Assembly: GCA_003344655.1 (NCBI GenBank) | Contig: MAIU01000006.1 | Coordinates: forward strand, 1 to 33,043 | Source: Candidatus Korarchaeota archaeon NZ13-K | GTDB lineage: Archaea; Korarchaeota; Korarchaeia; Korarchaeales; Korarchaeaceae | Length of the DNA stretch: 33,043 bases | Direction of reading: 5' to 3' | In this document: piece after piece, positions 28,543 to 32,837 of the stretch | Numbering within the stretch: position 1 is the stretch's first letter | Layout of the letters: the number at the start of each line of letters is the position of its first letter | Program-made: the position numbers and the translations under genes | Notes under the pieces: model-generated | The model's input: the letters and a program-made list of their open reading frames with translations, nothing else | Database searches by the model: none | Told to the model about the DNA's origin: nothing

Positions 28543-29838
28543 TCATATTTCCTCTAAAGTTTTACCCATAGTCTCGACACCCATGACGGCCACGGCCAGC
28601 CCCGCCAGCAGGTGGACCAGTGAGAAGACGGCGAACGGACCGGATATCCCAGTGGTAGCGAACAGATATGCGGTTATCGAGGGAGCCACTATCCCTATGA
28701 GTCTGCCGAAGCTAGCAGCTGCCCCGGAACCGCTGCCCCTTATCTCTGTAGGATAGAGCTCCGGGGTGTAGGCGTAGAGCCCGGCCCAGGCACCGAGGTT
28801 GAAGAAGGATATGAGAGAGCTGAAGGCAAACACCCAAATTAGATCCACTCTCAGGCTGAGCAGGGCTGAGAAGATGCCTGCCGCCGTCAGGTATATCGCT
28901 AAAACCTTCTTCCTCCCTATCCTGTCGAGGAGGAAGGATGCCGAGTAGTAGCCCGGGATCTGGAAGAGGGTCACGAGCAGGGTCCACCTCAGGGAGGTGA
29001 CGTCGCCGAGCCCGAACTGCCTCGAGTATATGGTGGGCAGCCAGAGGAATATGCCGTGATAGGTGTAGATGAGTCCCCCCCACAGTATGAAGAGCAGCAG
29101 GGTCCTTCTAGCGTATCTCCCGGACAGGAGATCCTTTATCTTGTATCTCCTGATCTCAGCCTGCTCCCATCCCCCCGGAGCGCTCCTAATGCCTAGAGTC
29201 AGCAGGATCCTCTCCACCTCGCGCACCCTGCCCTTGGCCACAAGGAACCTTATGCTCTCAGGGAGGTAGAGCACGACCAGAGGTAGCGTTGAGAGGGGTA
29301 GAAGGGCTATAGAGAACGTGGCTCTCCATCCGAGAGATGGGAGCAAGAGGTATGGGATCAGAAGAGAGATTATCACCCCGTAAACCCAGCTAGTCTCCAC
29401 CAATCCCAGAAATAGCCCCCTTCTCCCCTTGGGTGTGTACTCGGACACGTAGACGCCGGGCTGCGGTAGGGCCCCACCCAACCCCACTCCCGCCAGGAAC
29501 CTGAGGATGTAGAGGGAGCTCACGTCCTGAGCCAGGCCGCAGGCGGCCGTGAACACCGACTCCATCACCAGCACGATGATCAAGACCTTCCTCCTTCCCA
29601 CGATGTCGGCCAGCCTTCCGAAGAGGAGAGCGCCGAGGAACATGCCAACGTATCCGGAGCTCATCAGGTAGCCGATCGTCATCGTATCCAGGTTCCACTC
29701 CCTGGCTATAGGACCTACCAGAGCTGCGATGAGCATCACGTCCATTGCGGTGAAGCAGTAGACCAAGGAGGCCGTCAGGAGTATCAAATAGTGAAATTTC
29801 CCCACTTCAACCTCGTCGAGTGACCTTATTACCTGCAT
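28543..29838 (-). CDS. MFS transporter, sugar/aromatic acid symporter-like
   Basis: A 431-residue major facilitator with about 12 transmembrane segments. Signature motifs are GRLADIVGRRKVLII (motif A, loop 2-3), RFLAGVGLGGALPQPGVYV with SEYTPKGRRG (helix 4/loop), LPESIRFLVAKGR after helix 6, LLDRIGRKKVLAIY (second motif A) and ELYPTEIRGSGSG. This pattern fits the sugar-porter, AAHS or SV2-like branch. The substrate is not determinable. The ATG follows GAGGGATCC, with a TATA-like GGTTTTAAGC about 32 nt upstream. It is divergent from the CydA operon across a 222-bp gap; nothing in the sequence links their functions. Confidence 0.9.
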   Translation of the reverse strand: MQVIRSLDEVEVGKFHYLILLTASLVYCFTAMDVMLIAALVGPIAREWNLDTMTIGYLMSSGYVGMFLGALLFGRLADIVGRRKVLIIVLVMESVFTAACGLAQDVSSLYILRFLAGVGLGGALPQPGVYVSEYTPKGRRGLFLGLVETSWVYGVIISLLIPYLLLPSLGWRATFSIALLPLSTLPLVVLYLPESIRFLVAKGRVREVERILLTLGIRSAPGGWEQAEIRRYKIKDLLSGRYARRTLLLFILWGGLIYTYHGIFLWLPTIYSRQFGLGDVTSLRWTLLVTLFQIPGYYSASFLLDRIGRKKVLAIYLTAAGIFSALLSLRVDLIWVFAFSSLISFFNLGAWAGLYAYTPELYPTEIRGSGSGAAASFGRLIGIVAPSITAYLFATTGISGPFAVFSLVHLLAGLAVAVMGVETMGKTLEEI

Positions 29839-30006: not shown

Positions 30007-30016
30007 TTTATAATTT
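30007..30016 (+). promoter_or_regulatory. TATA box for the cydA-cydA' operon
   Basis: TTTATAATTT lies in the AT-rich stretch before cydA. A start site about 26 nt downstream would leave a leader of about 25 nt carrying GGGAGGTGG at 30044-30052. A second AT-rich element (TTATATCA, near 29963) could be an upstream promoter or factor site. Confidence 0.5.
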
Positions 30017-30060
30017 ATGGAATTGTTTGGGTGTTATTCCGACGGGAGGTGGTTGTCTAT

Positions 30061-31674
30061 ATGGACCTCCTCTCACAATGGCTGAACTACCCCGCGCCGC
30101 TGGACAGGATCCTCTCCATATTCGGGATAGAGCTTCACTGGCTGATCCTTCAGTACGTCCTAGGCATACCCTTCATGCTCCTGCTGACCCTGCTACTCTA
30201 TGCGAGGAGCAAGGACGGAAGATGGGAGAGGATAGCTAGGACGATGGCCAAATCTCTCGGGATAGTTTTCGCGGTAGGCGCGGCATCTGGCACCCTGAGC
30301 GAGTTCGGTCTGGTGGTCATATGGCCGAACCTGCTGGAGGCGGCGGGCAGGTACATATTCTTCCCACTTTACGCCGAGATATTCGCTTTCTTGATAGAGA
30401 TAATCTTCATATACTTCTTGGTGTTCGCTTGGAACAAGATAGGGGTTAGGGGCAAGATCGTCCTGTCCCTGCTTGCCCTATCCGGGGCTTGGCTTTCTGG
30501 CGCACTGATAATGAGCGTGAACAGCTATATGGTGGCTCCAACGGGCATAGTAGCTGCCTACGACCCGATGAGCGGGTGGAAGTACGATCAGGGCTATCCC
30601 AAGGTCCTGTTGGTGGTTCCCAATGATGTGGTGAAGGCGCTTGACGTGAACAAGCTCTCATCGCTCGGCATGGAGGTGGTTGGCAGTGGGGAGCGGGGAG
30701 TCTCGGTGCTGATGCCCTCCAAGATAGTCTCCAGGTTGGTCAGCGAGGCCTGGGGGAATGTCAGGGTCGGGGAGAGCGTGCTCTCCCTTGTAGTGAAGGA
30801 GGAGGCACTGATCGACCTCAGGGGGCTGCTGGTCAAGGATCTGGTTGACGTCATAATGGTCAACACTGTTAGGAGCGTCGGCTACACAGCCGTGACCTTC
30901 CTCTCACCTGTCTACCTGGGCAGCTTCCTTCACGCCCTGGGATCTGCCATAACGGTCACGGCCTTCACCCTGATCGGGGCCCACTCGCTCCTCCTGCTGA
31001 GGGGTAAGAGGGATGAACATCACTCGGCCGGCTTGAAGCTCGGCATCATCGTAGCCCTTATCTCCATAGCAGTCCAAGGCCTGGTGTTCGGTCACCTCAT
31101 AGGGGTGGAGATAGCCGTCAACAACCCGGAGAAGCTGGCCGCAATGGAGGGAACCAGCAGTGAGATCTTCAGCTTGGGGAGGGCCCTGGGCCTCGAAAAT
31201 CTGATGAGCTTCATAGCCTACGGAAGCTTCGATGCCAAGCTCCCGGATTACGATCGGATAAGCTTGGACTACTGCACCTTAGATGGAGTTCCAGCCATCT
31301 CGGATTGCAGACCCCCTCTCATGATTCACTACCTATACTACGCGAAGATAGGCCTCAGCCTCCTCCTAGGGGTGTACGCTCTACTGTGCTCGATCCTGAT
31401 CCGGAGGGGAGGGCTTCCGAGATCCCTCCTGATGGCCAATCTGGCCACTCCAGCGGCAGCCCAGCTCGTGAGCTTCCTCGGCTGGGCCGTCAGGGAGATG
31501 GGAAGGAAGCCCTGGTCCATATATGGGATCATGACGGTTGATGTCGCCCACACGGCCAACCCGGGGGATGTGCTCTCCTACTCGCTCATAGCGACCATAC
31601 TGGTCTGCGTGGCTCTTGCCCTCATCTCGGCCGTCTGGAAGTTTTTGTATGAGCCTTCCCTGCGGGAGGTGTGA
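30061..31674 (+). CDS. cydA: cytochrome bd-superfamily oxidase subunit CydA
   Basis: Catalytic subunit of a cytochrome bd-type oxygen reductase in the membrane, 537 residues. Recognisable elements: His26 in ELHWLILQYVLG (equivalent to the N-terminal heme ligand), AVGAASGTLSEF, Glu106 and Glu113 in YAEIFAFLIEI (proton-path glutamates, spaced seven instead of eight), NSYMVAPTG, His291 in SFLHALGSA (b558 ligand), NPEKLAAMEG (quinol-site Lys358 and Glu363) and REMGRKPW (residues 478-485). The region that should hold the second b558 ligand reads YYAKIGLSLL, without methionine. About 100 extra residues lie between residues 165 and 280. GGGAGGTGG, eight bases upstream, fixes ATG 30061 rather than the earlier in-frame start at 29983. 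Confidence 0.88.
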   Translation: MDLLSQWLNYPAPLDRILSIFGIELHWLILQYVLGIPFMLLLTLLLYARSKDGRWERIARTMAKSLGIVFAVGAASGTLSEFGLVVIWPNLLEAAGRYIFFPLYAEIFAFLIEIIFIYFLVFAWNKIGVRGKIVLSLLALSGAWLSGALIMSVNSYMVAPTGIVAAYDPMSGWKYDQGYPKVLLVVPNDVVKALDVNKLSSLGMEVVGSGERGVSVLMPSKIVSRLVSEAWGNVRVGESVLSLVVKEEALIDLRGLLVKDLVDVIMVNTVRSVGYTAVTFLSPVYLGSFLHALGSAITVTAFTLIGAHSLLLLRGKRDEHHSAGLKLGIIVALISIAVQGLVFGHLIGVEIAVNNPEKLAAMEGTSSEIFSLGRALGLENLMSFIAYGSFDAKLPDYDRISLDYCTLDGVPAISDCRPPLMIHYLYYAKIGLSLLLGVYALLCSILIRRGGLPRSLLMANLATPAAAQLVSFLGWAVREMGRKPWSIYGIMTVDVAHTANPGDVLSYSLIATILVCVALALISAVWKFLYEPSLREV

Positions 31675-31676
31675 GC

Positions 31677-32837
31677 ATGGTTCCCCAAGTCTTCTGCATC
31701 GCCCTGGTGTTCGGTATCCACATAGTCGCGGTCAACCTGGGCATAGCGCTATCCACGATGATCCCCTTCCTTAAGAGAAGGGCCGACCTGAGTGGCGACA
31801 GGGAGTTGGGCGACCTGACTAAGAGCATCTTCAGGATATATGCCGCAACATATGCTTTAGCTGGTGTGATGGGAACGGCATTCACCGTTTTCCTCCTCAG
31901 CTTCTACCCGGAGTTCGTTGGGGTTGCCGGAAACATAACGCTCGTGCCCTTCGGGCTGGCCATAGTATCCATACTGCTGCACTTCCTGGCGATAGTACTC
32001 TACTACTACGGCTGGGAGACCTTCTCCAGGGAGAGGCATTTCGCGGTCGGGATCCTGTTGGCCCTGACATCCTACACTATACCGCTGGGCTTCAGACTGG
32101 TATTCTCCTTCCTGAACACGCCAGCCGGCTTGAAGTTCGATGGTAAGCCTTACATAGAAACTTTCGAGGCGCTGCTGAACCCCACATTCGCCCCTCTATA
32201 CCTGAAGAGCATAGTGGGGGCCCTCACCTTCGGCTCCCTGTTCATAGCCGCCCTGGCATCCCTCAGCCTGAGCAAGGGGGAGTCCCGGGGGTGGAGGTCC
32301 CTGTACTCAGTGAGCCTGAGCATCGCAACTTTATCCCTGTTCTTGATGCTCCTCCTGGGCCCATGGTATGCCATGTCGCTGCTCTCAACCCCGCTCAAGT
32401 TCGATAACATATTCAGGTCGTTCGGCTGGAGCGTCAGCGGCTCCTCGGCGGGCCCGGACATGGGTTGGTTGTTCGCGGTGAAATTGGTCTTGATATTGCT
32501 GCAGATATACGCCGTGGCGAGGCTCGCGCTGGGAGGAGAGCGGGGGGGAAGTTTCAGGCTCGCCCTCCTGGCAGCAGTTTCCGCCGCCCTGACGATACTG
32601 AGCGGTGAGTATCTGAATATGTTCAGCCAATACCCGTTCTTCCTAGCTAATCTTCCACTGGTGGCATCCCAGATACCTGAGCCTTGGAGGACAATTCTCG
32701 GCAGATCCCTCTCCCTAGAGAACGTCAGCCCCCTGGCCGGTGAGCCATCGCTCCTCCTGGCGACCGCCGTGGGCATCTCGATCCTGCTGGCGGCCGCGGC
32801 GTATTTCATCTACGTGGTGCTCCTGAAGGAGGAGTGA
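31677..32837 (+). CDS. CydA' paralogue (second subunit of an archaeal CydAA' oxidase)
   Basis: A 386-residue membrane protein in the CydB position, but with CydA-like motifs. His15 in FGIHIVAVNLGIAL aligns with the first heme histidine. YAATYALAGVMGTAF matches the SGT helix, VLYYYGWETFSRERHF the helix after the proton glutamates, and LVFSFLNTPAGL the NxWMxxPxG segment. Other key residues are lost: Glu107 is replaced by His102, Glu99 by a hydrophobic residue, the b558 histidine by Lys177, and GRxPW by IPEPW. This fits CydA', the paralogue reported to pair with CydA in archaea such as Caldivirga. ATG 31677 has GGGAGGTG five bases upstream, two bases after the cydA stop. The main alternative is a very divergent CydB. 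Confidence 0.78.
   Translation: MVPQVFCIALVFGIHIVAVNLGIALSTMIPFLKRRADLSGDRELGDLTKSIFRIYAATYALAGVMGTAFTVFLLSFYPEFVGVAGNITLVPFGLAIVSILLHFLAIVLYYYGWETFSRERHFAVGILLALTSYTIPLGFRLVFSFLNTPAGLKFDGKPYIETFEALLNPTFAPLYLKSIVGALTFGSLFIAALASLSLSKGESRGWRSLYSVSLSIATLSLFLMLLLGPWYAMSLLSTPLKFDNIFRSFGWSVSGSSAGPDMGWLFAVKLVLILLQIYAVARLALGGERGGSFRLALLAAVSAALTILSGEYLNMFSQYPFFLANLPLVASQIPEPWRTILGRSLSLENVSPLAGEPSLLLATAVGISILLAAAAYFIYVVLLKEE

Follow-up and report, generated by a model that had tools for sequence, protein, structure and literature searches.

The operon at 30061–32837 of the window, by which we mean the whole 33,043-nucleotide stretch of DNA analyzed here (contig C6 of a 1.37-Mb genome that is 96% complete, from an archaeon of the hot-spring type), is, judged from its sequence, an archaeal CydA-CydA′ oxygen reductase. 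We consider it probable that the two proteins form a heterodimeric O2 reductase that obtains its heme from other members of the community and serves chiefly for O2 removal, a reading that we find the most likely because the genome lacks ALAD, HemC, CydB, and a heme-copper oxidase. The complex is a further member of the known archaeal CydAA′ type, and not the first for Korarchaeota. Korarchaeota are a deep archaeal branch that is usually treated as anaerobic; an O2 reductase conserved in most sequenced members of the phylum bears on how this lineage meets oxygen.

Operon structure, distribution, and gene neighborhood

The two genes lie adjacent and head to tail (Table 1) and both encode proteins of the CydA family, which is the arrangement that defines the archaeal CydAA′ type. 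The sequence-only reading of this DNA had described an operon of two CydA-like proteins, and this is borne out by the profile searches: against PF01654 (Cyt_bd_oxida_I, Pfam cutoff of 26.2 bits), CydA scores 221.5 bits (1.9e-65) and CydA′ 86.6 bits (1.8e-24), and neither protein has a match to the CydB profile PF02322 at E ≤ 1. The NCBIfam models point to the same kind of protein as Pfam, with scores far below the E. coli-type equivalog cutoffs. The PDB relatives of CydA are solely bd-oxidase subunit I, the best being Geobacillus 5doq, and the matches of CydA′ are subunit I chains too (1e-10 to 3e-5).

A strong Shine-Dalgarno sequence precedes each gene. An alternative GTG start of cydA′ at 31671 is possible and would extend the protein to 388 aa within the open frame that ends at 32837; we prefer the ATG at 31677 because of the placement of GGGAGGTG and because most relatives have a conserved Met there. 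We note that the CydA′ residue numbers used here nevertheless count from GTG 31671.

Table 1. Features of the cydAA′ operon and its divergent neighbor, in window coordinates.
Feature	Position	Strand	Basis or remark
MFS transporter, aromatic-acid/H+ symporter-like, divergent conserved neighbor	28543..29838	-	TIGR00895, 262.9 bits, below its 418.6 cutoff
TATA-like box TTTATAATTTAT, upstream of cydA	30007..30018	+	by eye, without statistics
Shine-Dalgarno of cydA, GGGAGGTGG	30044..30052	+	sequence
cydA, CydA large subunit, 537 aa	30061..31674	+	ATG 30061, stop ends 31674; PF01654 match
Inserted domain of ~100 aa, TM4-TM5, probably extracytoplasmic (side from CydA topology)	30586..30885	+	alignment
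H291 codon, heme b558 histidine (E. coli His186), invariant	30931..30933	+	alignment
Q-loop motif NPEKLAAME, quinol-site Lys and Glu	31123..31149	+	alignment
K429 codon, b558 methionine-ligand site (Geobacillus M325; E. coli Met393)	31345..31347	+	alignment
Shine-Dalgarno of cydA′, GGGAGGTG	31664..31671	+	sequence
cydA′, second CydA paralogue in the place of CydB	31677..32837	+	386 aa from ATG 31677
CydA′ H17 codon	31719..31721	+	alignment of 39 CydA′

The genome is korarchaeal by its relatives, in line with the suspicion that the DNA comes from a Korarchaeota-like genome. Candidatus Methanodesulfokora washburnensis, among the closest relatives of this genome, carries the pair at 71% (CydA) and 69% (CydA′) identity, and G009, which we take to be Korarchaeum cryptofilum OPF8, carries it at 73.5% and 68.6%. 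The idea of a new occurrence in Korarchaeota has to be given up, with the pair present in 17 of the 29 genomes of the phylum. Outside the phylum, it is found in the family of G219, presumably a Caldivirga, and in other archaeal families. A PF02322 search that was positive in 10 of 14 control genomes gave no match in this genome or in the other 28 of its phylum, and profile searches found no heme-copper oxidase in this genome. Elsewhere in the phylum, PF00115 (heme-copper oxidase subunit I) has matches of up to 200.6 bits in G018 (C6:4422-5888, L116), G010, G014, G015, and G016, and broken subunit I fragments are present in G007; the five genomes with matches stand in contrast to a 2025 survey, which places Korarchaeota among the lineages without this oxidase (PMC7618691).

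The korarchaeal sequences form two clades, with the CydA of the window sharing 71–77% identity with its own clade and 47–50% with the second one, and the CydA tree puts the Caldivirga-type sequences nearer to the latter. The AU test does not reject a single clade for the korarchaeal sequences (p of 0.07 for CydA and 0.40 for CydA′), and cydAA′ may have entered Korarchaeota either once or twice.

Within the clade of the window, cydAA′ is divergent from the MFS transporter gene and adjoins an L18e-L13-S9-IF5A-SRP54 cluster in G009, G012, and G022, as well as in G023 as far as the contig reaches, such that, including the present genome, the MFS gene stands beside the pair in five genomes; Methanodesulfokora and the second clade do not have this arrangement. 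Judged from its family, this transporter might import a quinone head group. We rejected bin contamination as the origin of the operon, because its neighbors are the genes for the ribosomal proteins S9 (identified by Pfam) and L13 and L18e (both named by eye) and for eIF5A and SRP54, and related genomes share this gene order. A search of a plasmid collection returned distant bacterial CydA only. The cydA gene of G012 (L036, G012:C3:127103-127561) has an in-frame TGA after ~129 codons beside an intact cydA′, and may be a pseudogene or a sequencing error.

Large subunit and the lysine at the heme b558 site

We aligned 36 CydAA′ large subunits (29 class-1 and 7 class-2) with 3 canonical CydA, and assigned residue roles via the alignment to 5doq. 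H26, E106, E113, H291, K358, E479, and R482 are invariant in all 36 CydAA′ large subunits, which, together with the gene order conserved in G009, G012, G022, and G023, supports our reading of the operon. H26 corresponds to the first heme histidine, E106 and E113 to the TM3 glutamates, K358 to the Q-loop lysine, and E479 (Geobacillus E378) and R482 are associated with the GRxPW motif, which in this CydA reads GRKPW beside E479. The Q-loop pair K358/E363 is kept here; across the alignment, the lysine of this pair is invariant, and the glutamate is present in 26/29 class-1 and 7/7 class-2 sequences.

The first protein departs from canonical CydA at two points that the sequence-only reading had missed, namely, K429 and an insert of ~100 residues between TM4 and TM5. 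The methionine ligand of heme b558 is Met393 in E. coli (PMC6853902) and is conserved among solved structures (PMC8951039). In our alignment, this site is occupied by Lys in 33 of the 36 CydAA′ large subunits (26/29 class-1, 7/7 class-2); Met is found in each of the 3 canonical CydA and, within CydAA′, in a single clade with 3 members. As heme can be ligated by lysine, His/Lys ligation of b558 by H291 and K429 would be the simplest reading of this pattern; loss of the sixth ligand at b558 is equally compatible with the sequences. K429 was considered as a korarchaeal novelty and rejected as such, with Lys being common to nearly all CydAA′. We found no prior report of a family-wide lysine at the methionine-ligand site in the literature examined, and one may already be in print. 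This near-universal substitution offers biochemists a specific residue to address, in the already expressed Caldivirga enzyme. In the clade that has Met at the CydA b558 site (L106, L107, and L108), the equivalent Lys of CydA′ is lost (S/H) and an upstream His is replaced by Asp, a change that is correlated across both subunits.

The TM4-TM5 insert measures ~100 aa in 29/29 class-1 sequences, 58 residues in class 2, and 9 in canonical CydA, and contains some strands in the predicted model of CydA, which is of low confidence (pLDDT 41). A second, very divergent archaeal CydA-CydA′ class (L109-L115 and L073), whose CydA′ proteins score 103–145 bits with the korarchaeal profile, has a shorter TM4-5 insert, and His rather than Lys at CydA′ position 179.

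In the mechanism that we propose, CydA would hold the three-heme site and a quinol-type Q-loop, at which a reduced lipid-soluble donor is presumed to be oxidized. Electrons would then cross the low-spin heme b558, ligated by H291 and probably by K429 in place of methionine, to a putative two-heme site (H26, E106, and E479), where O2 would be reduced to water. CydA′ would serve as the structural partner in the stead of CydB, and perhaps also provide a proton path, with heme likely scavenged from the surrounding community and O2 removal as the probable main use of the enzyme.

Heme supply and physiological role

ALAD (HemB, PF00490) is absent from this 96%-complete genome and, counting it, from 16 of the 17 korarchaea with CydAA′. 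The search itself works, because five korarchaeal genomes match at 474–486 bits, one of them that of Methanodesulfokora, where CydAA′ is present, and the other four lacking the pair. HemC (PF01379) is likewise absent from this genome and from 14 of the 15 CydAA′-bearing korarchaea tested, and is present in the same five ALAD-positive korarchaea and in 19/19 non-korarchaeal CydAA′ archaea tested, G219 among them. Most korarchaeal CydAA′ enzymes thus occur in hosts that lack a known tetrapyrrole route. In a 2010 survey, K. cryptofilum OPF8 was found to be without any hem or ahb gene, and it was suggested that such archaea either do not need tetrapyrroles or import them (PMC3004389). Of these two options we favor heme import, because the same genomes conserve a heme oxidase. 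The window also encodes the substrate component of an ECF-type vitamin transporter (PF12822, 17797-18324, + strand), which is in line with a cofactor-scavenging lifestyle.

Our search of the literature examined yielded no prior report of CydAA′ combined with missing tetrapyrrole genes across Korarchaeota, although this too may already be in print. A CydAA′ without a known tetrapyrrole route provides a clean test case for heme cross-feeding in hot-spring communities, as well as a warning that missing heme synthesis is no proof of a dead oxidase gene. More tentatively, and with less confidence than for the complex in this genome, we suggest that most Korarchaeota have an O2-reducing complex that depends wholly on heme from other organisms, with a histidine and a lysine as the ligands of b558. 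If true, oxygen tolerance in Korarchaeota hinges on the heme of their neighbors, and His/Lys is the usual ligand pair across the CydAA′ family.

As to the electron donor, MqnA/D of the menaquinone route have no match in this genome, and its UbiA homologues are ambiguous. PF02621 (MqnA/D) has weak matches in 13 korarchaeal genomes, which we rejected as evidence for menaquinone; in G009, the matching protein is an ABC-transporter binding protein beside a permease and an ATPase. A UbiD-UbiA pair neighbors this protein in G009, and is ambiguous as well.

These observations bear on whether the enzyme could instead be an energy-conserving terminal oxidase, supporting microaerobic respiration with imported heme and quinone in the manner of lactic acid bacteria. 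Retention of the quinol-site Lys and Glu, of both TM3 glutamates, and of E479 would be expected of such an oxidase, the UbiD-UbiA pair of the probable K. cryptofilum genome could belong to a quinone route, and the aromatic-acid-type MFS transporter beside cydAA′ in five genomes means that a quinone head group is importable in principle. However, no quinone pathway was found in this genome, UbiD and UbiA serve archaeal isoprenoid and lipid synthesis as well, and Korarchaea are generally called anaerobes, with varied antioxidant genes (PMC10469681), such that we regard energy conservation as possible but rather unlikely.

It is also unlikely, and somewhat more so, that the cell makes its own heme with NirJ/AhbD-like radical SAM enzymes, starting from a late precursor, such as siroheme, that it imports. 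Proteins of this kind are encoded in the genome (G000:C8:13315-14361, C60:1560-2432, and C65:447-2134), where TIGR04545 has twelve matches, the best of 264.8 bits, and one radical SAM protein with 210 bits to TIGR04055 adjoins a UbiA gene, all of which would be consistent with such a conversion. None of the radical SAM proteins in this genome, however, exceeds the curated cutoffs for the heme enzymes (500 for AhbD and 650 for AhbC), and the pair on contig C65 matches TIGR04053 or NirJ better than AhbD.

Finally, if heme cannot be made, the complex could be a relic, or have a non-heme or otherwise altered function. This would agree with the missing ALAD and HemC, with the in-frame TGA in one copy (G012), and with the precedent of an oxidase match in a heme-less methanogen that was judged to be probably no real oxidase (PMC7618691). 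We nevertheless consider it improbable: apart from the Met/Lys site, no heme-ligand or proton-path residue varies among the aligned korarchaeal copies, even at identities down to 45%, and such constancy would be difficult to account for if heme binding were not under selection.

Second subunit and comparison with known systems

CydA′ has nine hydrophobic segments, and its TM2-TM4 region aligns with CydA in a profile comparison (E of 7e-7). Outside Korarchaeota, the CydA′ profile has matches at 300–445 bits, and both profile searches and trees group the protein with other archaeal CydA′, including the Caldivirga-like one. An AlphaFold model built from three sequences is of low confidence (pLDDT 54.9, pTM 0.56); with this low-confidence model, Foldseek returns CydA chains at ranks 1–9 (E of 7.8e-6 to 6.9e-4) and CydB chains at ranks 10–14 (E ≥ 9e-3). 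The sequence-only reading had named two outcomes that would refute it, a clearly better score with CydB than with CydA profiles and a predicted structure without the CydA core; the profile scores and this fold ranking both came out in its favor.

H17 of CydA′, which corresponds to the first heme histidine in CydA, is invariant in 39/39 aligned CydA′, as are H123, R142, and E313. Among the elements that the sequence-only reading had listed as retained, this histidine and the NxPxG segment (here NTPAG) hold, whereas the supposed SGT helix reads MGT, and thus keeps its GT. The losses that it had listed are all found: both TM3 glutamates are missing, the b558 histidine site is K179 (with Lys there in nearly all class-1 CydA′), and SQYPF stands at the GRxPW site. 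These features suggest that CydA′ is a pseudo-symmetric partner replacing CydB, in which a full three-heme site is unlikely. The operon position and similar size might suggest a divergent CydB within an ordinary CydAB enzyme, but this is already refuted by the profile scores (86.6 bits with CydA against no match with CydB) and by the fold ranking with CydA first, with H17 invariant besides.

Compared with CydAB (E. coli bd-I and Geobacillus 5doq), the complex shares the CydA core, the heme histidines, the TM3 glutamates, the Q-loop Lys/Glu, and E479 with GRxPW. It differs in that the PF02322 subunit is absent and a CydA paralogue takes its place, in that the His/Met ligand pair of b558 is broken (H291 is present, and K429 replaces Met), and in the ~100 inserted residues. 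As in Lactococcus lactis, one of our control genomes, where PF01654 and PF02322 both have matches and ALAD and HemC have none, the oxidase genes lie in a genome without heme synthesis. Lactic acid bacteria respire on supplied heme, or on heme and menaquinone (PMC8303990, PMC5094797); the L. lactis enzyme is a bacterial CydAB for which heme rescue has been shown experimentally, whereas in the korarchaeal case it is a prediction from the genes.

The description of CydAA′ as an archaea-only branch can be kept for the quinol-type branch, but the label also covers the bacterial OR-N “CydAA′” pairs of Nitrospinota/Nitrospirales, for which cytochrome c has been proposed as the electron source (PMC10839748). 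The korarchaeal complex resembles these in that two CydA-like proteins are proposed to pair, and differs from them in retaining the quinol-type Q-loop.

The closest counterpart is the CydAA′ of the Caldivirga maquilingensis type, with which our complex shares two CydA paralogues, no CydB, the inserted TM4-TM5 domain, and conserved H26, E106, E113, H291, Q-loop, and E479. A lysine in the place of the b558 Met is also common to both, as seen in L097, the Caldivirga-like copy of G219. The hosts differ, in that nearly all of the korarchaeal ones are without ALAD and HemC, and G219 has HemC. The Caldivirga CydAA′, described by Murali, Gennis and Hemp in 2021, is reportedly an active quinol oxidase with b hemes only, and, by likeness to it, the korarchaeal complex may also contain only b-type hemes and oxidize quinol with O2.
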